A stretch of DNA of 34,957 bases from Thermoanaerobacteraceae bacterium. Lineage in GTDB: Bacteria > Bacillota > JADQBR01. The stretch covers positions 1 through 34,957 of the forward strand of contig JACDOG010000022.1 of NCBI GenBank assembly GCA_017656305.1, read 5' to 3'. Positions 7,127 through 27,229 of this stretch are shown piece after piece (position 1 is the first letter of the stretch; the number at the start of each line of letters is the position of its first letter). A program made the position numbers and the translations under genes. The notes below the pieces were generated by a model. The model had not been told where the DNA came from. It was given only the letters and a program-made list of their open reading frames with translations, and made no database searches.

Positions 7127-7254
7127 GGTTTTTTGGATCCGTAAACAGACTACCCCTCATCCACATATATTGTTTCTTCTAGTTAAACATGCGTAGGAAA
7201 TAGAAGATTTTTTGGACAAATTATCATGATAGGAATCGGAGGAGGTTAACAAGG

Positions 7255-7775
7255 ACGGCCCGTGTTAAAATGGTTGAAGTAACAGAAGCTACTGGAAAGG
7301 TAAAAGAAATTTATGAAGACATCCTGGACAATTTCGGTGTAGTTCCAATCTGTTTAAGACCCTGGCATTAAAGCCTGATATACTGGAAGCTAATTGGAGA
7401 AAAATCAAGGCTGTGATGATGCAAGGAGAACTTCCCAGAGACCTGAAAGAAATGGTAGCAGTGGTTGTTTCACAGGCTAATAGTTGTCAATATTGTGTTA
7501 ACGCTCACGGATCGGCGTTGAAAATGCTAGGAATGCCTCGGGAGAAAGTGGTACAGTTATTGGAAGATATTGATGGGAGCGATGTTTCCGAAGCGGTCAA
7601 AAAGGTGTTAAAACTTTCGGTGAAAGCTACCCGGGAACCCTATAAAATCACCGATGATGAATGGCAGGAACTTAAGGCCCAGATAGTTGAATTGTTTTCG
7701 GTGGTAGATCTGTACACCTCGTTTAATAAATTTTTAGACACACTACAAGTTGATATCGATTTTCCTGCTATCTAG
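7255..7775 (+). pseudogene. Carboxymuconolactone decarboxylase / AhpD-like protein, frameshifted
   Basis: Codons from 7255 read ARVKMVEVTEATGKVKEIYE, the usual N-terminus of AhpD-like proteins. GGAGGTT (7241-7247) lies 7 nt before an ACG at 7255, where ATG is expected. The frame then breaks: after CCA (7345-7347) one base is missing (CCAATCTG where CCAAATCTG would restore PNLFKTLALKPDIL). Reading continues in the new frame from CTG at 7350 to the stop at 7775, through CQYCVNAHG, the C-x2-C-x3-H redox/peroxidase motif. Restored, it would have about 173 residues. An internal start at 7413 could still yield the 120-residue C-terminal part with the active-site motif. An in-frame ATG at 7270 also exists ahead of the frameshift. 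Confidence 0.75.
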
Positions 7776-8949: not shown

Positions 8950-8986
8950 AAATAAGCCCGGTTTAAACTGTTGACCGGGCTTATTT
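8950..8986. terminator. Bidirectional terminator between convergent genes
   Basis: AAATAAGCCCGGT (8950-8962) pairs with ACCGGGCTTATTT (8974-8986), giving A-runs and T-runs on the two sides. It serves both the Crp/Fnr gene and the aldolase gene. Nothing else is evident between 8809 and 9015. Confidence 0.8.
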
Positions 8987-9015: not shown

Positions 9016-9816
9016 TTAAGCGTCGCAGGTGGCAGCAAGTTCCGTCAGTACCTGTTCCGAAACGGTTTCATCCAGGATTTTACGAATGGCTCTGACAAGT
9101 TGAATCGGATTGGGGTGCTGGAACACGTTTCTGCCGATAGAGACACCCTTGGCGCCTGCTTTCACGGCATCTGCTACTATTGCCAGCAGGTCGCGGGTAG
9201 AATTGAGTTTCGGACCTCCGGCTATAATAACGGGTACTTTAATGGTACTAGTGATTTCGGCAAAACTATCCACCGATCCGGTATAGTTGATTTTTATTAT
9301 ATCCGCACCGGCTTCTTCGGCGACTCGTGCTGCATGTTTGATTTTTGCCGGGTGATACTCACTATCCCTGGAGCCGTCCCTAATATACATCATCGCCAGC
9401 AGGGGCAGTCCCCATAATTCGCAGTGCTCCGCTACTTTGCCCAAATCCTGCAGCATGCGGGCTTCATAGCTGCTGGCCAGGTTTACATGAACCGAAACTG
9501 CAGTTGCTCCTAAGCGAATGGCATGTTCTACCGAAGATACCAGTTCTTTGCGAGTGCTGTCCGGAGCCAGGCTGGTAGAAGCTGAAAGGTGTACGATTAG
9601 TTCGCAGTTTTTCGTGCTTAAAGAGGGAAGAATCTGTTTAACCAGACCTTTGTGGATTATTACCGCGTCTGCACCACCCTCAGCTACCGATTTAACCAGT
9701 TGAGACATATTCTCAAGGCCGGGTATAGGTCCCAGACTGATACCGTGGTCCATGGGTACCGTTAACAGTCGTTCGTGCCTGAATAAACGGTTTAACCGCA
9801 GTTCTTTTCCCGTCAT
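9016..9816 (-). CDS. AroA'-type class I aldolase (2-amino-3,7-dideoxy-D-threo-hept-6-ulosonate synthase)
   Basis: A DhnA/DeoC-like TIM-barrel aldolase of 266 residues. K175 in ADIIKINYTG is the Schiff-base lysine, D23 in PMDHG and Y144 in MMYIRDG match the catalytic Asp and Tyr of the archaeal ADH synthase, and GGPKLNS and GVSIGRNVFQ bind phosphate. In archaea and some anaerobic bacteria the enzyme starts an alternative route to 3-dehydroquinate for aromatic amino acid synthesis. That role fits the next upstream sequence, which is the tail of a probable 3-dehydroquinate synthase II. The start follows GGGGGAAC. A plain fructose-bisphosphate aldolase is the alternative. Its promoter and upstream partner seem to have been removed by the break at about 9903. 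Confidence 0.82.
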   Translation of the reverse strand: MTGKELRLNRLFRHERLLTVPMDHGISLGPIPGLENMSQLVKSVAEGGADAVIIHKGLVKQILPSLSTKNCELIVHLSASTSLAPDSTRKELVSSVEHAIRLGATAVSVHVNLASSYEARMLQDLGKVAEHCELWGLPLLAMMYIRDGSRDSEYHPAKIKHAARVAEEAGADIIKINYTGSVDSFAEITSTIKVPVIIAGGPKLNSTRDLLAIVADAVKAGAKGVSIGRNVFQHPNPIQLVRAIRKILDETVSEQVLTELAATCDA

Positions 9817-9834: not shown

Positions 9835-9902
9835 TTACTTTTCGATAATGGTTTCTTCAACCTTGATACCGACATGCCGGCCGGGTTCGCAGACATAGTG
9901 AA
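9835..9902 (-). pseudogene. 3' remnant of a probable 3-dehydroquinate synthase II gene
   Basis: On the minus strand, immediately before the aldolase gene, an open frame ends FHYVCEPGRHVGIKVEETII-E-K-stop (TAA at 9837-9835). The GRH-x-G and terminal IIEK pattern resembles, from memory, the C-terminus of AroB'-type dehydroquinate synthase, the usual partner of the AroA' aldolase. Only about 22 codons survive; beyond 9902 the sequence belongs to a truncated livJ on the other strand. The identity of so short a tail is uncertain, but that it is a coding remnant is likely. Confidence 0.5.
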
Positions 9903-10853
9903 ATGAACCCACAGGTAGCGCTGCAAAAGGCCCGGCGACTGGTTGACGGGGAAAACGTTGATATTGTGACGGGAATAGTAAGCAGTACGGTTGCTTATGC
10001 TTTGCGGGATTATCTAGTGGAAAACAAGGTTCCCGTAATTATTGCCAATGCCGGTGCGGCTGGTTTGACCGGGGAGAAAGGCAGCAAGTATATCTTTAGA
10101 GTTTCCTTTGCCAACGGCCAGTATGAATATCCCATGGGCGACTATGCCTATAACCAGCTCAACTTGCGGAGAGTAGTTGTTATGGCTCCTGATTATGCTG
10201 CCGGCTTGGAAAAAGCTCGGGGCTTTATGGATAGTTTCCGGGCAAACGGCGGGGAAATCATCCAGGAAATTTATCCCAAGCTGGGTACCACTGACTACGG
10301 TCCTTACCTAGCCCAGGTCAACAAGGAAGCTGACGCTGTCTGGGTGCATTTTTCCGGTACGGACTGTATCCGATTTGTCAAGCAGTATGCAGACTACGGG
10401 TTAAAGGATATATTGCCCCTGCTGGCTACCGGTGACCTGGTAGATGAATCTGCTTTGCCGCACCAGGGTGACGCTGCCATTGGCATTGTCAGCTCGCACC
10501 ATTACAGTGCCGCTTTGGACACGCCGGAAAACAGGAAATTTGTTACCAGTTACCGGGCCAAGTACGGGGAAGAACCCAATATGTATGCTGATCAAGGCTA
10601 TGTTGCCGCTAGGGTGATTGTTGAAGCCCTGGAAGCCACCGGCGGCGATATTTCTGATACCGAGAAATTTTTATCTGCCATTCGCAATGTCAGGTTTACT
10701 GCTCCGCGGGGCCCTTTTAAATTTGATCCGGAAACCCAAAATGTTATCTTTGATACCTATATCCAGAAAACTGAAAAAATTCATGGCAAGCTGGTCAATA
10801 CGGTCATTAAGACCATACCTGCCGCTGAAAACGGTTGGAGCCAGCCCAAGTAG
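9903..10853 (+). pseudogene. livJ: Branched-chain amino acid-type ABC substrate-binding protein, 5'-truncated
   Basis: The frame opens at MNPQVALQKARRLVDGENVD, which corresponds to about residue 80-100 of LivJ-type proteins. The signal peptide and first beta-alpha units are missing and no ribosome site precedes the ATG. The rest is collinear with the Peripla_BP_6 fold: a GIVSSTVAYAL segment, the VVVMAPDYAAG hinge strand, YADQGYVAARVIVEAL, and a C-terminal segment with RGPFKFDPETQN, up to a normal stop. Without a signal peptide the product could not reach the cell surface, so it is probably non-functional. The downstream livHMG genes keep their order. Ligand class: amino acids, or aromatic acids and other small carboxylates, as in many Liv-type systems. 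Confidence 0.8.
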
Positions 10854-10880: not shown

Positions 10881-11756
10881 GTGACAATGGAAGTGACCCA
10901 AATAATCATCCAGGTCTTAAACAGTATATCCTACGGGTTATTGTTATTTCTGCTGGCAGCCGGTCTTTCCCTGATCTTTGGCTTAATGGGGGTTATTAAC
11001 CTGGCCTACGGTTCCTTTTTTATGCTGGGCGTTTACCTGAGCCTGGCAGTAATTGAGCAAACGGGAAGTTTTATCTTAGCCCTGCTAGGAGCGGCAACTG
11101 CAGTTTCCCTGGTAAGCATGGTGATGGAGGTTTGTTTTATTCGAAAAATCTATAACCGGGAGCTGGACCAGGTTTTGCTTACCTTCGGGTTTGCCTACAT
11201 TTTCATGGATATTGTCAGGTGGTGTTGGGGAGGGACGCCCCAGTCCCTTCCCAAACCAGTCATGTTGCAGGGGTCAATCTCTATATTAGGGGCAATTTTT
11301 CCGGTATACCGGCTGGCGGTAATTTTTGTAGGCATACTACTGGCTCTGGTACTGTGGTTAATCGTTGAGAAAACCAGAATGGGAGTCATAATTAAAGCCG
11401 GTGTGGACGACAAAGAGATGGTTAGCGGCCTGGGAATAAACATAAGGTTGTATTTTACCTTGATTTTTGCCCTGGGTGCCTTTCTGGCAGCGGTGGGCGG
11501 CGTGCTTGGAGGCCCTATTACCGGTGCTTACCTGGGATTGGATTCGGAAATTCTGGTACTGGCGCTGGCAGTAGTTGTTATAGGGGGACTGGGTACTCTC
11601 AAAGGGGCCTTTCTGGGCAGTGTCCTGATTGGTTTTATGGAAACCTTTGGTAACGCTTTCTTTCCCAATTACGCCATGATGACCATTTATATTACCATGG
11701 TTGCTGTTCTGGTGTTGAAACCTAACGGTTTACTGGGAAAGGATGAGCGGCCGTGA
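10881..11756 (+). CDS. livH: LivH-type ABC transporter permease
   Basis: A 291-residue membrane protein of the branched-chain amino acid permease family, with about eight hydrophobic helices. Family features include GLSLIFGLMGVINLAYGSFFMLG near the N-terminus (given in parts: GLSLIFGLMG, INLAYG) and the cytoplasmic loop KAGVDDKEMVSGLGIN. Start at the GTG at 10881 close to AGGGGG, or the ATG at 10887, which has wider spacing. Its stop overlaps the livM start by 4 nt (GTGA). With livJ truncated and livF frameshifted it may now be an orphan. Confidence 0.9.
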   Translation: MTMEVTQIIIQVLNSISYGLLLFLLAAGLSLIFGLMGVINLAYGSFFMLGVYLSLAVIEQTGSFILALLGAATAVSLVSMVMEVCFIRKIYNRELDQVLLTFGFAYIFMDIVRWCWGGTPQSLPKPVMLQGSISILGAIFPVYRLAVIFVGILLALVLWLIVEKTRMGVIIKAGVDDKEMVSGLGINIRLYFTLIFALGAFLAAVGGVLGGPITGAYLGLDSEILVLALAVVVIGGLGTLKGAFLGSVLIGFMETFGNAFFPNYAMMTIYITMVAVLVLKPNGLLGKDERP

Positions 11757-12757
11757 AGCTCATGCCTGCAAAAGCTGTAACAATACGGAGGATTTTACCA
11801 ATGTTTTTGGGTGTAACATTGCTGATCGCGTTAATTATATTGCCCTTTGGACTGGGCTCTTACGGGCTGAGCCTGATGATCTCTGTCCTCATTTTTGGGC
11901 TTTTTGCCATGAGCCTGGACATTTTAATCGGGTACACGGGGCTGGTGTCATTTAACCATGCCACCTTTTTTGGGGTTGGTGCCTATGTGGTGGCTATTCT
12001 GTTTTACCGCGGCTGGGACAATTTTTGGCTTGCCCTACCTGCAGCTGTTGCTGCTTCTGTGTTGTTGGCAACGGTTTTGGGTTTAGTGGTGTTAAGGAGC
12101 AGCGGGCCCTATTTTCTTATGATAACACTGGCGTTCGGGCAGATGATTTTTGCTTTAGCCTGGAAATGGCGTACTTTCACCGGGGGAGATGACGGTTTGC
12201 CCGGTATCCCCAGACCTGATCTGGGATTTCCCGTGTCTATGTGGAATGAACAAAACTTTTACTACCTTGTGCTGGTATTCATTTGCTTAAGTTTTTTGCT
12301 GCTGCGCCAACTTTTTCGTTTGCCTTTGGGTAGGGCCATTATCGGGGTAAAGGAAAGCGAGTCTCGCATGCAGGCCCTGGGGTACAACACCTGGCTTCTA
12401 AAGTACTTGGCCTACGTCATTGCAGCAGGTTTTGCAGGATTGGCGGGAGTGTTGTACGTTTATTACAACGGGTTTATCAGTCCCCAGGAACTTAACTGGA
12501 CAATGTCTGGCATGGCCATCTTGATGGTGGTTATAGGCGGGACAGGAACACTGGTAGGGCCGGTGTTGGGAGCGGGAATAATTTTGATTTTGCAAAATTT
12601 GCTAAGTGCGTATACCGAGCGCTGGCCCCTGGTTATAGGCATGCTTTTTGTCATTTGCGTTATTCACGTTAAAGATGGAATTGCGGGTTATGTAATGAAA
12701 TTATGGGAAAAAGGTTGGAAAGGTTATGAAAGCCCTGGAAGTGAGAAGCCTAACTAA
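11753..12757 (+). CDS. livM: LivM-type ABC transporter permease
   Basis: The second Liv permease, 334 residues, about nine or ten hydrophobic helices. Recognised by SLDILIGYTGLVSFNHATFFG-type sequence (key part GYTGLVSFNHATFFG), RSSGPYFLMITLAFGQM and the cytoplasmic GVKESESRMQALGYN loop that contacts the ATPases. The GTG start overlaps the livH stop. The last 32 nt overlap livG, so translation is probably coupled. Confidence 0.9.
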   Translation: MKLMPAKAVTIRRILPMFLGVTLLIALIILPFGLGSYGLSLMISVLIFGLFAMSLDILIGYTGLVSFNHATFFGVGAYVVAILFYRGWDNFWLALPAAVAASVLLATVLGLVVLRSSGPYFLMITLAFGQMIFALAWKWRTFTGGDDGLPGIPRPDLGFPVSMWNEQNFYYLVLVFICLSFLLLRQLFRLPLGRAIIGVKESESRMQALGYNTWLLKYLAYVIAAGFAGLAGVLYVYYNGFISPQELNWTMSGMAILMVVIGGTGTLVGPVLGAGIILILQNLLSAYTERWPLVIGMLFVICVIHVKDGIAGYVMKLWEKGWKGYESPGSEKPN

Positions 12758-13433
12758 ATATTACGGTGAGTTTCAAGTGTTGAAGAACGTATCATTTTCC
12801 GTGGAACCGGGCGAGAGAAGGGCCATTATTGGGCCGAACGGTGCTGGGAAAACCACCTTATTTAACATCATCAGCGGCACGCTTAAACCAACCCTGGGAA
12901 AAATTTTCTTTTTTCACCGGGATGTAACTTACATGTCAGCTTATCGCCGCTCCAGGCTGGGTATCGGCAGAACCTTTCAGATTACCAATCTCTTTTTTAA
13001 TTTGAGTCTCATGGATAATATCAACCTGGCTTTACAGATCAGCAATTCTTCCTTAAACCTGGAAGAATTTTTGCGGTCATGGGGGTTTTGGGAAAAACGT
13101 CGCACGCGCGTCGGGAATCTCTCTTACGGTGAGCAGCGACAGGTGGAACTGTTACTGGCTCTGGCTCAATCTCCGAAATTAATTCTTCTGGATGAACCAA
13201 CTGCCGGTATGTCTCCGGTGGAAACCGAAGCCATTACCCGGATTATAACGGAGCTTCCCCGGGATATTACCATTCTCATTATTGAACATGATATGGAAGT
13301 GGTGTTTACCCTGGCAGACAGCATTACGGTGCTGCACTACGGGCAAATCCTATGCGAGGGAACCAAAGAACAGGTGAAGTCCGACCCGCGGGTAAAAGAG
13401 GTTTACCTGGGGACAGCGGGAGAGGAGGTCTAA
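12726..13433 (+). CDS. livG: LivG-type ABC transporter ATPase
   Basis: Walker A GPNGAGKTT near residues 36-44, the Q-loop in GRTFQITNLFF, signature LSYGEQRQ, Walker B LILLDEPTAGMSP and switch His in IIEHDMEVV. It is 235 residues, some 15-20 shorter than typical LivG, with the loss in the helical segment before the signature (LNLEEFLRSWGFWEKRR). All nucleotide-binding motifs are intact. The start overlaps livM by 32 nt, with GGAAAGG upstream. Confidence 0.9.
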   Translation: MKALEVRSLTKYYGEFQVLKNVSFSVEPGERRAIIGPNGAGKTTLFNIISGTLKPTLGKIFFFHRDVTYMSAYRRSRLGIGRTFQITNLFFNLSLMDNINLALQISNSSLNLEEFLRSWGFWEKRRTRVGNLSYGEQRQVELLLALAQSPKLILLDEPTAGMSPVETEAITRIITELPRDITILIIEHDMEVVFTLADSITVLHYGQILCEGTKEQVKSDPRVKEVYLGTAGEEV

Positions 13434-13437
13434 ATTA

Positions 13438-14135
13438 ATGCTGCAGTTACGTGAGGTTCATACCTTTAAGGGGGATAGTCATATTTTGCAGGGAGTATCA
13501 ATGGAGGTGCCCCGGGGGGCAGTCATAGCATTGCTGGGTCGTAATGGTATGGGAAAAACACTACTATTTCCTCGATTATGGGGTTTCAAAGATCCAGCAG
13601 TGGCAAAATACTCTTCCGTGGGGTAAATATGGTTGGGAAAGAGCCTTACCAGATAGCTCAAATGTGTATTGCGCTTGTCCCTCAGGGAAGGAGAATTTTT
13701 CCTTCCCTGACTGTAGCGGAAAATTTGACTTTGGGATGGCGGAAACGCGGTGTTGGGCAGTTGAGTTACAATTTGGACACTGTCTTTGACCTGTTTCCGG
13801 CACTAAAAGCCAGAAGTAGGCATAAGGGAAACCGGTTAAGCGGCGGGGAACAGCAGATGGTTGCTATAGGACGCGCCCTGATGACCAACCCAGAATTACT
13901 TCTGATGGATGAGCCGTTTGAAGGGCTGGCACCAGCCGTAGTTAAGGAGATCACCAGGAAAATAATGCAGATAAAGGTTTCCGGCGTATCCATTTTATTG
14001 GTTGAGCAAAATATCCCGGTGGCATTACAACTGGCTGATTACGTTTATATCATGAACAGGGGCAAAATTGTTTACGAAGCCGATAGGAAGCAGCTGCAAA
14101 ATCAGGAAGAAATAAAAAAACATTTTCTTCTTTAA
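13438..14135 (+). pseudogene. livF: LivF-type ABC transporter ATPase, frameshifted in Walker A
   Basis: The first frame (from the ATG at 13438 after a GAGGAGG site) reads to GRNGMGKT and then goes out of frame. From about 13560 the +2 frame continues with TISSIMGFQRSSSGKILFRG, VALVPQGRRIFPSLT-like sequence, signature LSGGEQQM, Walker B LLLMDEPFEGLAP and switch His region VEQNIPVALQLADY, to the stop at 14135. One base is missing in the codon after AAA (13555-13557): GGAAAAACACTACT where an extra A or C would restore GKTTTISS. The break hits the threonine codons of Walker A, so neither half can hydrolyse ATP. True mutation or a read error at the short A/C run are both possible. Confidence 0.85.
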
Positions 14136-14473: not shown

Positions 14474-15739
14474 TTACAGGAATTTGGTTTCCTCCGCTTT
14501 AAGATAGGTTTTTTGCTGCATTTCAGCTGCGGTATAAATGTACCGCGGTTTACCTATCCTGCCGACAGAAAGCAACTTGCTGCGGTCCAACAAGGTGCCT
14601 TTTGGAACAATCTCAACCTCCAAAGGAACCTCGTGTAATTGTTCCAACTTGCGTATGAAATGGGCACTGAGGGTCCCGCTGCAGTTTTCCTTTTCGATGA
14701 CAAATTTTACTCCCCTGGTACCCGGCCCTGCTATCCAAAAGCGTCGGTAAGGAAGGAGGGATACCAGGTCATCCAAATCCCATTGATCCAGTACACGTCT
14801 GCCAACTTTGATGGTATTCTGCATGCGCCCACGTATTTCAATAACTTTTTCCTTGCCGCAGGGGCATTCTTCGTGGATCAATTTGGCTCTATCGCCGGTC
14901 AGGTAGCGAATTAATGGAGTGGCTTCTTTATTGAGTGTTGTTACCACCAGGTATCCGGTTTCACCGGGCTCTGCATCGGTTTGCAGGTCCTCTTTTAATA
15001 TTTCGTAGATAAAACTATTCTCGTCGGGATGGGGACGGCAAAATTCGCAGTCATTAATCTGGGAACCTGTCTCCGTCATGCCGTAGTTATTTATAATCTG
15101 TACCTTCCAGATGCTTTCCAGCAGTTTTCGCTTGCCGTCAGTAAGGGGTTCTCCCGCCGTAAAAATGGCCCTCAGGTTGGGAAAGTCTTTTGCAGGATTA
15201 AAGCCCAATAATTCAGCCGTTTCGGCTAGGAGAAGAGCCTGCAGTGGCAGGCAGGCGAGAATGGTTACCTCAAGCTTTTGCATTAAGTGGATAATTCTTG
15301 TAAACGGGCTCACTGTAGAGCGGGAACTGGCCGGAATTACACAAGCGCCCTTTAATTGTGCTGCCCGGTGGACATAATGGGCGATGGTAGATATGGCGTA
15401 CGGGAATCTTACCAGAACTACGTCCTCTTTGGAAAAATTTATGCCCCCGGTGTTGATGTGCCGGGCGTTAAACTTAAAATCTTCTTTAGTTAACCAGGTA
15501 GAAACCGGAGTGCCGGTTGTGCCGAAGGATTCATGGTATTGGTACAGTTCTTTTCGTGGTACGCACACTAGGTCGTACGGCGAACAGCGGCGCAGTTGTT
15601 CTTTAGTGGTTAGTGGTATCTGCTTTAACTCCGAAAGTGATCTGAGCTCTCTCTCAGGGAGTTTCTCCCGGTAAAAGGGAGCTTTTTTACACCGTTTCAG
15701 GAGAGCATTTAAAGCAGCTAGTTTTTCGCCCGGTGTCAT
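14474..15739 (-). CDS. PaaK-type adenylate-forming CoA ligase
   Basis: A 421-residue member of the phenylacetate-CoA ligase family, which activates an organic acid with ATP and transfers it to CoA. Visible motifs are the P-loop ESFGTTGTP near residue 70, a GEPLTDGKR segment, the adenine-binding YGMTETG, and the hinge region LIRYLTGDRA followed by a Cys-containing ECPCGKE segment as in PaaK. AGGAGG precedes the ATG. It is the last gene of a four-gene operon and the second PaaK homologue in it, clearly diverged from the other. The substrate cannot be read; an aromatic acid is a reasonable guess. Confidence 0.85.
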   Translation of the reverse strand: MTPGEKLAALNALLKRCKKAPFYREKLPERELRSLSELKQIPLTTKEQLRRCSPYDLVCVPRKELYQYHESFGTTGTPVSTWLTKEDFKFNARHINTGGINFSKEDVVLVRFPYAISTIAHYVHRAAQLKGACVIPASSRSTVSPFTRIIHLMQKLEVTILACLPLQALLLAETAELLGFNPAKDFPNLRAIFTAGEPLTDGKRKLLESIWKVQIINNYGMTETGSQINDCEFCRPHPDENSFIYEILKEDLQTDAEPGETGYLVVTTLNKEATPLIRYLTGDRAKLIHEECPCGKEKVIEIRGRMQNTIKVGRRVLDQWDLDDLVSLLPYRRFWIAGPGTRGVKFVIEKENCSGTLSAHFIRKLEQLHEVPLEVEIVPKGTLLDRSKLLSVGRIGKPRYIYTAAEMQQKTYLKAEETKFL

Positions 15740-15751
15740 GTTTTTACCTCC

Positions 15752-16513
15752 TTACGTGGCAAGGCCCAGTAAACCTTTAATGTTGTCACAGAGAATTTTG
15801 TCCAGGTCATTTTCTTTAAGGTTCAGGAGAAGTATTTTTTGTATCTCTACCTTCGGGTGTGACAGGGGAAATTCGGAGCCAAAAATTACTTTGCCCGGTC
15901 CTGCTTTAGTGACTGCCTCTTTAATATGCAGGAAACTCCCTGTTGAGGTTTCCAGGTAGAAATTGTCCAATTCCGCTGCCGCTTTTAAGCCGTCCTGGTC
16001 TGCTGGGCCAAATCCCATGTGTCCCAGAATAAAATCGGTTTTGGGAAATTGGCGGGCCAGGGCAACAAACCTGGCGGTAGACGCTCCGGGACTATACAGC
16101 ACATGAGTATATACCGGGTAACTGTAACTGCCGCAGCAGTCTGCCAGTTCCGCCATGGCCTTGCTTGCAAAAGAAAACTGGTGTGTTATGGGCGACAACT
16201 TTAAACCTTTAAAGCCTTTTTGAAAGCCCTGTTCCAATTTGCTGACAGCGTTGGGCTCATGAGGGTCAAGGCACATAAATCCCGTGAGAGAGGTGTCATG
16301 GGCTTTACAAGATTGGGCGACATAATCGTTATCGGGTACCAGACTTTCCGGCTGGGATCGCCCTAAAATATACTCGGTCATCTTGCGGACGTCCACCATA
16401 CCGCCGGGTACGACTACTCCTCGTTCGATACCCGCATCTTCTAATTGTTTCAGGTATATATCAACATTACCATACGTGGTATCGGAGATATGGGCGTGAG
16501 CATCGATGATCAT
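15752..16513 (-). CDS. Metal-dependent amidohydrolase (amidohydrolase 2 family)
   Basis: A TIM-barrel hydrolase/decarboxylase of about 254 residues. The N-terminal IIDAHAHISD provides the HxH metal ligands, a strand with GLKLSPITH and YTHVLYSPG follows, then ILGHMGFG, and IFGSEFPLSH near the C-terminus where the catalytic acidic residue normally lies; here it is Ser-Glu rather than the common Ser-Asp. The ATG at 16513 has GAGGAG 8 nt upstream and is preferred to a GTG at 16522 that overlaps the ribosome site. Relatives include decarboxylases of aromatic acids and lactonases. The gene is set between the two PaaK-type ligases, 12 nt before the second. Confidence 0.82.
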   Translation of the reverse strand: MIIDAHAHISDTTYGNVDIYLKQLEDAGIERGVVVPGGMVDVRKMTEYILGRSQPESLVPDNDYVAQSCKAHDTSLTGFMCLDPHEPNAVSKLEQGFQKGFKGLKLSPITHQFSFASKAMAELADCCGSYSYPVYTHVLYSPGASTARFVALARQFPKTDFILGHMGFGPADQDGLKAAAELDNFYLETSTGSFLHIKEAVTKAGPGKVIFGSEFPLSHPKVEIQKILLLNLKENDLDKILCDNIKGLLGLAT

Positions 16514-16518
16514 GGTGT

Positions 16519-17856
16519 TCACTCCTCTTCATGAACTACGCGGACGGTTTTTTCACGGGGGCGTGGCAGTTTATCGACAATCTCAAATTCACAAGGTATA
16601 CCTACGGCGAATTCCAGTTTGCTGGATAATTTGTCAACTAATTCCGCAGTGGGCTGGACGCCGGGCGCTAGTTCGACACGTACTTTTAATTTGTCATTAT
16701 TGCCTGGTTTCACTACAAATTGATACCAGTTACCTACTTCCGGCATGCGCATCAAAAATTCTTCCAGGTAGAAAGGAGAAAAGTTGGTTCCGTTGATTAC
16801 GATTTCATCTACCACACGTCCCCGTAAAAATAGCCGTGGAAATGTAATGCCGCACTGGCACGGGTCGGGATCTATAAAGCCCAAATCCTGGGTGCGGTAA
16901 CGAATTAATGGCGTGTCGAAACGCAGCAGGCAGGTAACGACGATTTCGCCTATTTGCCCGGGCTCCAAAACCGTTCCTGTATCGGGGTCCACTATTTCTG
17001 TAATTACATGACCCTGGACAATATGATAGCCGTTGTGGGCGTCGCATTCAGCACCAATGCCCCCGGCCTCCAGAGAACCGTAATAAAAATTGGCCTTAGT
17101 TCCCCAGATTTTTTCTACTCGCTCCCGAAACGCTGGCGAGCAGCCCTCACCTGTGAGCCATATTTTCTTCAGGGGTAAAGTGGTCAGGTCAAAGGAGGCT
17201 TCGCTGGCAGCTTCGGCAAGTCTAATGGCCCAGGAAGGCGTCGTGATGACAACGGTTGGCTGGAGGTCGCGCAATATTTTTATGGATTTTTCCGGTGTCG
17301 AGTATGCTCCCCCTTTACCGACAGGGATGGTTGTTGCCTGGCAGCCTTCCATGAAGACTTTATGGAATGACAATCCTGCGGAACTCATTTCGTAGGGCAG
17401 GGCATTAAAGCAGATGTCATCGGACTCAACGGGGAACAGGTTGGGGTAACCCGGGGCTAATTCATTAAGGTAATAGTCATTCCAGGTTTGCATAATATAG
17501 ATTTCTTCACCGCCGGTTGTGCCGGTGGAAATGTGAATAATACTAATATCCTTTTTGTCACAGGCCAGCAGTGCCCAGGGTTTTCCGCGCAGTTCATCCT
17601 TGGTGGTAAATGGCACTCTGGCCAGGTCGTTGATGCTGCCGATGTCCTGCGGTTTAACACCAGCTGCAGCCATTTTCTGGTGGTAAAAGGGTGAATTGTT
17701 ATAGGCTCGGGTAATAAGTTCCTGCAGTGCTTCTTCCTGAAACTTGGCAATTTTGGTTGCCGGCATTTCGTCGGGAAAATCCGGTCCCGAAAAGTATTTG
17801 GTCAACAGTGCCGGTTTGGTTGCGCTCTTGATACGCTTTTCAAATTTGGATGTCAT
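16519..17856 (-). CDS. PaaK-type adenylate-forming CoA ligase
   Basis: 445 residues, close to canonical PaaK. Motifs are the P-loop STGTTGGEE near residue 110, the GEGCSPAFR segment, YGSLEAGGIG in place of the usual YG-x-TE, LIRYRTQDLG and a DPCQCG Cys pair, and a small C-terminal domain ending REKTVRVVHEEE. The adenine-site motif is unusual (SLE instead of S/T-E), which may reflect a special substrate. The start codon overlaps the stop of the TPR-like gene (ATGA), so the genes are translationally coupled. The next gene starts just after its stop. Confidence 0.87.
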   Translation of the reverse strand: MTSKFEKRIKSATKPALLTKYFSGPDFPDEMPATKIAKFQEEALQELITRAYNNSPFYHQKMAAAGVKPQDIGSINDLARVPFTTKDELRGKPWALLACDKKDISIIHISTGTTGGEEIYIMQTWNDYYLNELAPGYPNLFPVESDDICFNALPYEMSSAGLSFHKVFMEGCQATTIPVGKGGAYSTPEKSIKILRDLQPTVVITTPSWAIRLAEAASEASFDLTTLPLKKIWLTGEGCSPAFRERVEKIWGTKANFYYGSLEAGGIGAECDAHNGYHIVQGHVITEIVDPDTGTVLEPGQIGEIVVTCLLRFDTPLIRYRTQDLGFIDPDPCQCGITFPRLFLRGRVVDEIVINGTNFSPFYLEEFLMRMPEVGNWYQFVVKPGNNDKLKVRVELAPGVQPTAELVDKLSSKLEFAVGIPCEFEIVDKLPRPREKTVRVVHEEE

Positions 17857-19841
17857 TGCTTTTTCTCCCCCTTGGAAACGTCCGTCTTATTAATAAGGGC
17901 TTCGTATTTGGAATCCGTGGTTTTTTTTAACAGTCTTGACCAGACTTTTTCGGCCTTTACCTCATCACCAACGCGCTGGTAGCACACACCCAGGTCGTAA
18001 AGAACCTGCCAGTAGGTTGCCTCGGAGATGCTAGCATCGCCTTTTTCATAGGCTGACTTGACGAAGCGGAAGTCCTTGATAGCTTTTTCTAAAAGGTCGT
18101 GGAAAAAGATTGCTGGAAGAGAATAGATGAGGTATCCCCGCAACAAGCGAAGCTCAGCATTGTTCCAGTCAAGTCCGATAGCTTTTTTTAGTGTCGCCAG
18201 CCCTTTTATGGCATTACTAAACATGACACTCGGGTTCTTTGCGTATTTTCCGGTTAAAGCAAGAGAACTGCCGTAATAGCCCATTATTACGGGGTCATGG
18301 GGGTACATGTCACGAGCTTTTTCAAAAATTTCAAAAGCTCTTTGTGCTGCTACGGCATTTCCGGCAACGCCCTGGTCATGCAGGCGTTTTCCTTCTGCAA
18401 GTAGTTTTTCCCTGGTATTAAGTGAGGCTAATTTCGGTGAACTGTCATCCGGATTACGGGTTTGCTGCTTATCTACCAGCGACCGGTACTTGGGGTCCGG
18501 GTTTAGTGATAGCAGTTTTTGCCACGTGGTGGCGGCTTCTTCTTTCATTTCCAAACGTTTATAGGCAGTTCCCAAATCATAAAGGACTTGCCAGTAGGTT
18601 TCCTCTGAGAATACGCTATTATCTTCCTCATACTGCTGGATGAAATAATTGAAATCTTCGATGGCGGTGGCTGTGCGGTGAAAAAACGCTTCGGGGAGCC
18701 TGAAGCTTTGATATGCTCTTATGAAGCGAATCTGAATGTTGCCCGGATCGTTGTTGACACACTTATCCAGGGCTTTCATAGCTTTAATGGCATTGGCAAA
18801 CATATCCTGCGGGCTGGTTGCGTCGCGGCCTGTCATGGAGAGACAGTCGGCACAATATGCAGCGATAAGCTGGTCACCGGGGTATTTCTCCCGAGCTTTT
18901 TGGAAAAATGTAAGTGCCTGGCGGGTGGCCTCGGGATCACCCTTCAGCGCACGGGCGTGAAGTTCGGCCCCCTGCTCTAATAATTGACGGTACTTCTGTT
19001 GTCCATCAGCTGAACGTTTCGTGCTATCTCCAGGACTTGGATTATCGCTTGTTGTCTGGGTTGACTGTTGTTCAATTTGTATCCCCTCAGCCTTTAAAAG
19101 CTCCTGATATCTGGTATCTGCGGCAGTATTTAATAGCTTATACCATGTTTCCTCTGCTTTCTCGGTGTTGTTTACATTTTTATATGCGTGACCGAGGTTG
19201 TAAAGCAATTGCCAGTAAAATTGCTCTGAAAAAACAGTATTATCTTGCTCGTAACGGTTGATGAGATAATTGAAATCTTCAATGGCGGTTGTGGTACGGT
19301 GAAAGTACATCTCCGGGAGCCTGTAGCTGACAAAGCCGCGCAAGGAACGTACCTGGATGTGGTCCGGGTTATTGCTGACAACCCGGTCCAAAATTTTTAA
19401 ACCTTCTAATGCCTTGACAAAACGTTCGTTTGGGTCAACGGCATCGCGCCCCAAGAGGGCAATGGTACTGCCGTAATACCCTTCAACGATAGGGTCTTGT
19501 GGGTTGGCTTCGCGAAGTTTTTCCAGTATTTCGTGAGCCTGAACAACGGCCTCCTTATCACCATTTACTCCGGCATCATGCAATTTCACGGCTTCTACTA
19601 AAAGGGCTTCGTGAGATTGCGTTTTTGGCGCTTTCTTATCTACAGATGATTTTGTCTGGGTCATTTCTTGTTTTTTGACCTCCTTGGTTTTCGTTTTATT
19701 TTTATCCTGTTTCGAAACTTGAATCTCAGCCTGCTGCTTTCCTGGCTGTTCCTGTTTTTTTTCCAATGTATCTTTTTTGGCGGAACTGGGTTTTGGGTTG
19801 CGCCTGTGCGGCGGTCTTCTCCGGTGCCTTAGGTAAAGCAT
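17853..19841 (-). CDS. Large protein of three tandem TPR-like modules
   Basis: 662 residues. The first 75 are Lys/Gln/Arg-rich, low-complexity and probably disordered. Then three homologous modules of about 173 residues follow: 78-250, 283-457 and 477-651, joined by polar linkers. Each module has an opening helix (LLVEAVKLHDAGVNGD, LLEQGAELHARALKGD, LLAEGKRLHDQGVAGN), a YPxDPxIxGYYGSxLALxG-like block, an RxLRGYxxYxLPExxFH block, and a final YWQVLYDLGxAYKR helix pair. This is a TPR/SEL1-like helical-repeat architecture. No signal peptide or membrane segment is visible. AGGAGGG precedes the ATG. It leads the operon with the two ligases and the amidohydrolase, so a scaffold or regulator for that pathway is conceivable; function is unknown. 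Confidence 0.8.
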   Translation of the reverse strand: MLYLRHRRRPPHRRNPKPSSAKKDTLEKKQEQPGKQQAEIQVSKQDKNKTKTKEVKKQEMTQTKSSVDKKAPKTQSHEALLVEAVKLHDAGVNGDKEAVVQAHEILEKLREANPQDPIVEGYYGSTIALLGRDAVDPNERFVKALEGLKILDRVVSNNPDHIQVRSLRGFVSYRLPEMYFHRTTTAIEDFNYLINRYEQDNTVFSEQFYWQLLYNLGHAYKNVNNTEKAEETWYKLLNTAADTRYQELLKAEGIQIEQQSTQTTSDNPSPGDSTKRSADGQQKYRQLLEQGAELHARALKGDPEATRQALTFFQKAREKYPGDQLIAAYCADCLSMTGRDATSPQDMFANAIKAMKALDKCVNNDPGNIQIRFIRAYQSFRLPEAFFHRTATAIEDFNYFIQQYEEDNSVFSEETYWQVLYDLGTAYKRLEMKEEAATTWQKLLSLNPDPKYRSLVDKQQTRNPDDSSPKLASLNTREKLLAEGKRLHDQGVAGNAVAAQRAFEIFEKARDMYPHDPVIMGYYGSSLALTGKYAKNPSVMFSNAIKGLATLKKAIGLDWNNAELRLLRGYLIYSLPAIFFHDLLEKAIKDFRFVKSAYEKGDASISEATYWQVLYDLGVCYQRVGDEVKAEKVWSRLLKKTTDSKYEALINKTDVSKGEKKQ

Positions 19842-26589: not shown

Positions 26590-26677
26590 ATTTCCGATAA
26601 AGGCAAACCTCTCGAAAGGGAGGGACGCAAAGCCAACGGTCTAAGGCTGTAAAGCTATGACGGCAGGGCTGCCGAAG
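26590..26677 (+). promoter_or_regulatory. c-di-GMP-I (GEMM-I) riboswitch aptamer
   Basis: The stretch carries the conserved GEMM-I blocks in order: AAGGCAAACC, a stem capped by a CGAAAG tetraloop, GGGACGCAAAGCC, the A-rich CTAAGG turn, and a second stem with TAAAGCTATGACGGCAGGGCTGCC. It binds cyclic di-GMP and controls the pentaheme cytochrome gene downstream through the switch at 26677-26743. Confidence 0.93.
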
Positions 26678-26743
26678 AAATAGGAATTTCTTGTTGAAAT
26701 TCCTATTTCCTTTAACGGTATTGGGAAATAGGAATTTTTGTTT
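26677..26743 (+). terminator. Riboswitch expression platform: antiterminator/terminator switch
   Basis: Three segments compete. A (GAAATAGGAATTTC, 26677-26690) can pair with B (GAAATTCCTATTTCC, 26696-26710). B can instead pair with C (GGGAAATAGGAATTT, 26723-26737) to give a 15-bp terminator followed by TTGTTTTTT. Segment A begins right at the 3' edge of the aptamer, so c-di-GMP binding should decide which pairing forms. Whether the switch is ON or OFF cannot be settled by eye. Confidence 0.85.
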
Positions 26744-26761
26744 TTTCAAGGGGGAGTTGCT

Positions 26762-27229
26762 ATGGCGAGATGGCTGGTTTTCCTGATAATGATGTCCTTA
26801 TTCCTGTTTACAAACACAAGCTATGCCGGGATAGATTTGGTGGAGAAGCAGCTTTTGGTAGGTGTGGTTTTAAGCGAGGATACCAACCCGGTTGCGAAAA
26901 ACAACCAATTGTCGGTGGAGGCTGTTCAAGGAACATGTTTTAAGTGTCATGAAAAGGAAACGGGGAAATTTGTTCACCAACCGTATGCCAGGCAGGAATG
27001 TAGGCGCTGTCACGAGGAGCAGCAACCGGGTAGCGGCCATCATGGCCGGTTAAAACAACAGGTTAACTTGTTATGCCAGGAGTGTCATCCGCAGGAGGGT
27101 AACAACCATCCCCTTGACGAAGCCGGTTTAACCTGTCTTAACTGTCACCAGGTACACACCAGCGATAACCCCGAACGTGTTCTCTATACTAACGACCAGT
27201 TGTGTTTGGGGTGTCATAATTTTAACTAA
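26762..27229 (+). CDS. Secreted pentaheme c-type cytochrome
   Basis: 155 residues. The N-terminus (MARWLVFLIMMSLFLFTNTS, cleavage likely near YAG) is a signal peptide. Five CxxCH heme motifs follow: CFKCH, CRRCH, CQECH, CLNCH and CLGCH, in a doubled-CxxCH arrangement with extra His residues (FVHQPYARQ, GSGHHG, NNHPL, QVHTSD) that can serve as axial ligands, as in NrfB/NapC-partner and extracellular electron-transfer cytochromes. It should act outside the membrane in electron transfer. Start: ATG at 26762 after GGGGGAG. It is the only gene under the c-di-GMP riboswitch, so its expression follows the c-di-GMP level. Confidence 0.93.
   Translation: MARWLVFLIMMSLFLFTNTSYAGIDLVEKQLLVGVVLSEDTNPVAKNNQLSVEAVQGTCFKCHEKETGKFVHQPYARQECRRCHEEQQPGSGHHGRLKQQVNLLCQECHPQEGNNHPLDEAGLTCLNCHQVHTSDNPERVLYTNDQLCLGCHNFN

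Follow-up and report, generated by a model that had tools for sequence, protein, structure and literature searches.

Two genes truncated at one shared point: a dehydroquinate synthase II remnant joined head to head with a livJ fragment in a Thermoanaerobacteraceae bacterium

The truncated genes and their joint

The window analysed here (34,957 nucleotides) is the whole of contig 22 (JACDOG010000022.1) of the Thermoanaerobacteraceae bacterium assembly GCA_017656305.1, a 2.70 Mb draft genome in 62 contigs that is 99.95% complete and 0.4% contaminated. The minus strand at 9835-9897 carries the remnant of a 3-dehydroquinate synthase II-type gene, consisting of its last 20 codons (YVCEPGRHVGIKVEETIIEK, 9838-9897) and a stop codon at 9835, with approximately 356 upstream codons gone. 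This tail matched positions 325-344 of the Pfam DHQS model in a profile search (E=0.0023), was identical at 19 of 20 residues to the C-terminal end of a 376-aa Thermincola protein by tblastn (E=1.6e-7), and aligned closely with the C-termini of the synthase in 17 relatives. The preliminary description had reported 22 codons of a dehydroquinate synthase II before its AroA' partner; the identity held, but the extra F-H proved to be livJ antisense. The orphaned partner, an intact 266-aa aldolase of the ADH synthase or AroA' type, lies at 9016-9816 on the same strand, and was assigned by matches to Pfam DeoC/LacD (1.7e-58), to the ADH-synthase equivalog model NCBIfam TIGR01949 (326 bits, above the cut-off of 299) and to the structure of MJ0400 (8.9e-74). 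To the left of the aldolase are a GC-rich hairpin (approximately 8957-8986), which a consensus terminator scan did not call as a terminator, and then a Crp/Fnr gene. Since these and not livJ occupy that side, the synthase-aldolase pair was a separate unit here. An ordinary, canonical aroB is present in the genome, so that the cell could lose the synthase and still make aromatic amino acids.

On the plus strand, 9897-10853 encodes a livJ-type substrate-binding protein from which approximately 82 N-terminal codons are missing, along with the signal peptide, the start and the promoter. The fragment opens at about codon 83 in a gene for ~400 aa, its match to Peripla_BP_6 starts at profile position 53 (E=2.6e-65), and it is collinear with intact relatives from Ser-Glu-Met-Asn onward, the ~82 codons absent being those of the homologue in BRH_c20a. 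Upstream of the fragment we found neither a start codon nor a Shine-Dalgarno-like site, and no signal peptide, in agreement with the abrupt start noted previously. The ATG at 9903, from which the frame is open for 316 codons, is an internal methionine codon of livJ in all relatives aligned. The dN of the fragment was 0.12, compared with 0.21-0.22 for livH and livG, a comparison for which dN alone is usable as dS is saturated between livJ copies. Because the surviving part of livJ keeps an open frame of 316 codons and shows no acceleration in dN, its truncation, if real, is recent. The permease genes livH (10881-11756, placed by tblastn synteny) and livM (11753-12757) and the ATPase gene livG (12726-13433) follow intact on the plus strand. 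The second ATPase gene, livF (13438-14135), has a one-base frameshift in its Walker A motif near 13558-13560 (GKT / TTISSI). The operon thus carries two lesions, and the separate livF frameshift suggests that it is decaying. A carboxymuconolactone decarboxylase-like gene to the left of the site (7225-7775) also seems to be interrupted by a one-base frameshift, at about 7345-7350, and sequencing error is therefore possible for single-base lesions, that of livF included.

We located the joint by comparing the DNA of relatives at both ends. The plus strand of the window reads ...GCAGACATAGTGAAATG... across the joint, where the synthase of relatives has ...CTG GCC TAT GTC... and livJ of the relative G389 has ...GAA GAT AGT GAA ATG.... 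From either side, collinearity with intact relatives runs as far as the same four bases, ATAG at 9895-9898 (CTAT in the synthase sense). Because these bases are assignable to either side, the two genes meet cleanly and share 3-4 bases, a probable microhomology in which the ancestral letters are those indicated by relatives. This places the joint at 9895-9898 instead of approximately 9903, the position given before, which is the internal livJ methionine codon. The earlier claim that two genes were truncated at one shared point is confirmed: both flanks are homologous to intact genes and are cut at a single point, as expected of a deletion. The flanks of the joint contained no long direct or inverted repeats of note, and terminator and promoter scans of the window gave hits no more numerous than in shuffled sequence. 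The sole match in an Rfam scan of the window was a c-di-GMP-I riboswitch (26592-26676), unrelated to the joint; a multihaem-cytochrome-like gene lies downstream of it at 26738-27229.

Relatives and the lost 5' parts

The synthase was intact directly before the aldolase in 17/17 relatives readable at the site; an 18th was unreadable at the place of the synthase, its contig starting 88 bases before the aldolase. Among genomes readable at the site, only that of the window has the aldolase without the synthase. The junction of the window was absent from every relative examined, and in none of them was the synthase divergent from livJ. Two Thermincola-like genomes have a TPR protein gene on the minus strand followed by synthase, aldolase and livJ-H-M-G-F collinear on the plus strand. 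BRH_c20a likewise has the TPR gene (minus) beside livJ-H-M-G-F (plus); its synthase-aldolase pair lies further to the right on the minus strand and converges with a second livJ. These arrangements suggest that the pair moves around among relatives. The closest livJ, at 81%, is that of G389, in which the order livJ-H-M-G-F-lig1-amidohydrolase-lig2-TPR on contig 117 is the same as in the window, where lig1, the amidohydrolase, lig2 and the TPR protein occupy 14474-19841 on the minus strand. This identity of order indicates that the right flank of the joint is an old arrangement. The G389 contig starts within livJ, and that genome yielded no synthase and no aldolase; two other genomes of the window's family lack both the aldolase and this livJ. 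The livM gene of G389, the closest syntenic relative, has an in-frame TGA (L010:2518-2520).

As proposed in the preliminary description, we sought the missing 5' halves elsewhere in the genome, and they were absent from the 2.70 Mb assembly. A DHQS-family search of the assembly returned nothing, the tail alone being too short for the threshold, and a full-length livJ query returned only this fragment and a distant paralogue of 22% identity, without the 5' part. Searches of the rest of the window for remnants of the lost halves gave chance matches only (tblastn to E=10). The assembly contained neither the genuine continuations that an assembly join should leave at the ends of other contigs, nor the reciprocal joint of synthase and livJ 5' parts expected of a simple inversion, and the reciprocal joint was also absent from the window. 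The lost DNA should be missing from the genome after a deletion, but not after a simple mis-join. Together with the homology of both flanks and the intact synthase beside the aldolase in all readable relatives, these results support the initial reading of the site as a recombination or deletion junction or an assembly join. They also leave that reading with a synthase homology that extends over 20 of the 22 codons first assigned, and with no relative sharing the arrangement.

Origin of the joint

On balance we favour a real and recent scar of gene loss, in which one illegitimate event between head-to-head operons took both 5' ends. The ancestor would have had a minus-strand operon of synthase then aldolase, head to head with the plus-strand liv transporter operon. 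A single deletion at the 3-4 nt microhomology would then have removed ~356 synthase codons, the shared promoter region and ~82 livJ codons, at least ~1.3 kb in all. The aldolase would thereby have lost its operon promoter, and the transporter operon both its promoter and a working binding protein. The present sequence is reached most directly by a single deletion between divergently oriented operons, since the hairpin and Crp/Fnr gene, and not livJ, immediately follow the aldolase, and since neither lost end is present. Against it stand the collinear order in both Thermincola genomes and the convergent pair and second livJ of BRH_c20a. The word deletion in the title of the preliminary description presupposes a divergent ancestral order seen in no relative examined. 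As in microhomology-mediated (illegitimate) bacterial deletion or rearrangement junctions, two unrelated truncated genes in the window meet cleanly at a few shared bases, with the DNA between them lost; nothing specific sets the window apart, its ancestral order being a presumed one.

An artefact of assembly or amplification is possible but considerably less probable; it could be a mis-join, a gap that was collapsed, or an inverted chimera such as multiple displacement amplification (MDA) produces, and at the joint itself such a chimera would look no different. Most chimeras formed in MDA are inverted joins at short complementary sequences, with the DNA in between deleted (PMC1855051). If the ancestor was collinear as in Thermincola, the window resembles them in its short-homology joint, its inversion and its missing DNA. 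The 62-contig draft, the lack of decay in the stubs, and the single-base frameshifts elsewhere in the window (7345-7350 and 13558-13560), which could be sequencing errors, point the same way. However, a mis-join should leave continuations at other contig ends, and neither 5' part occurs anywhere in this nearly complete and scarcely contaminated assembly, in which respect the window differs from MDA chimeras; moreover, unrelated sequence and not livJ lies left of the aldolase. We consider it rather unlikely that a collinear synthase-aldolase-livJ arrangement underwent inversion with breakpoints in synthase and livJ, and lost the other joint at once or later. Two Thermincola genomes do have the collinear order, and the relative orientation of the pair and livJ varies among relatives, but this route takes more steps, needs a second loss from the Thermincola order, and predicts the 5'-5' joint that was not found; in addition, agreement with G389 from livJ to TPR implies that the liv block kept its orientation. 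That the head-to-head arrangement is conserved and functional, with a short livJ or a synthase tail having its own role, is highly improbable: the 316-codon open frame would allow it, but this frame lacks a ribosome site and a signal peptide, its ATG falls inside the gene in relatives, none of which shares the arrangement, and livF is broken too. Both truncated genes are very likely dead, with products that would be non-functional. The scar is an ordinary rearrangement or deletion, possibly an assembly error, and not a new kind of element.

Pathway context

GriI and GriH together form 3,4-AHBA, and Bag/Fev-type proteins act in pathways to metabolites derived from it (PMC10179220). The aldolase is related to BagB/FevI, the synthase to BagC/FevH and lig1 to BagE/FevW (E=1.2e-65), in each case below the cut-offs of those models. 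Like GriI/GriH-type (3,4-AHBA) pairs, the window has the aldolase and a DHQS II-like tail, arranged as in all relatives; it differs from them in that the synthase is destroyed, and the identity of the pathway in these Firmicutes is putative. Since aroB is also in the genome, the pair more likely serves a specialised or other aromatic pathway than the shikimate route. In anaerobic Firmicutes we observed a conserved neighbourhood of a DHQS II-like and ADH-synthase-like pair, BagE/FevW- and PaaK-like ligases, an amidohydrolase, a large TPR protein and sometimes a liv transporter (window 9016-9816 and 14474-19841; loci L032, L033, L035, L036, L061-L067 and L075), which by its gene content appears to resemble a 3,4-AHBA-type pathway. 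A more speculative reading, to which we give limited credence, is that a 3,4-aminohydroxybenzoate-type pathway, often rearranged in anaerobic Firmicutes, is being dismantled in this genome, the synthase, binding protein and transporter ATPase having been broken nearly simultaneously and the livM of the syntenic relative having acquired its stop independently.

By itself the joint carries little weight, being one more scar of gene loss or a fault of a draft genome. It does call for caution in annotation, as 9903-10853 should not be annotated as a working LivJ, and there is no dehydroquinate synthase II to be counted here. The intact neighbourhood of the relatives, with its GriH/GriI-like pair beside BagE/FevW-like ligases, is the better lead and may merit study.
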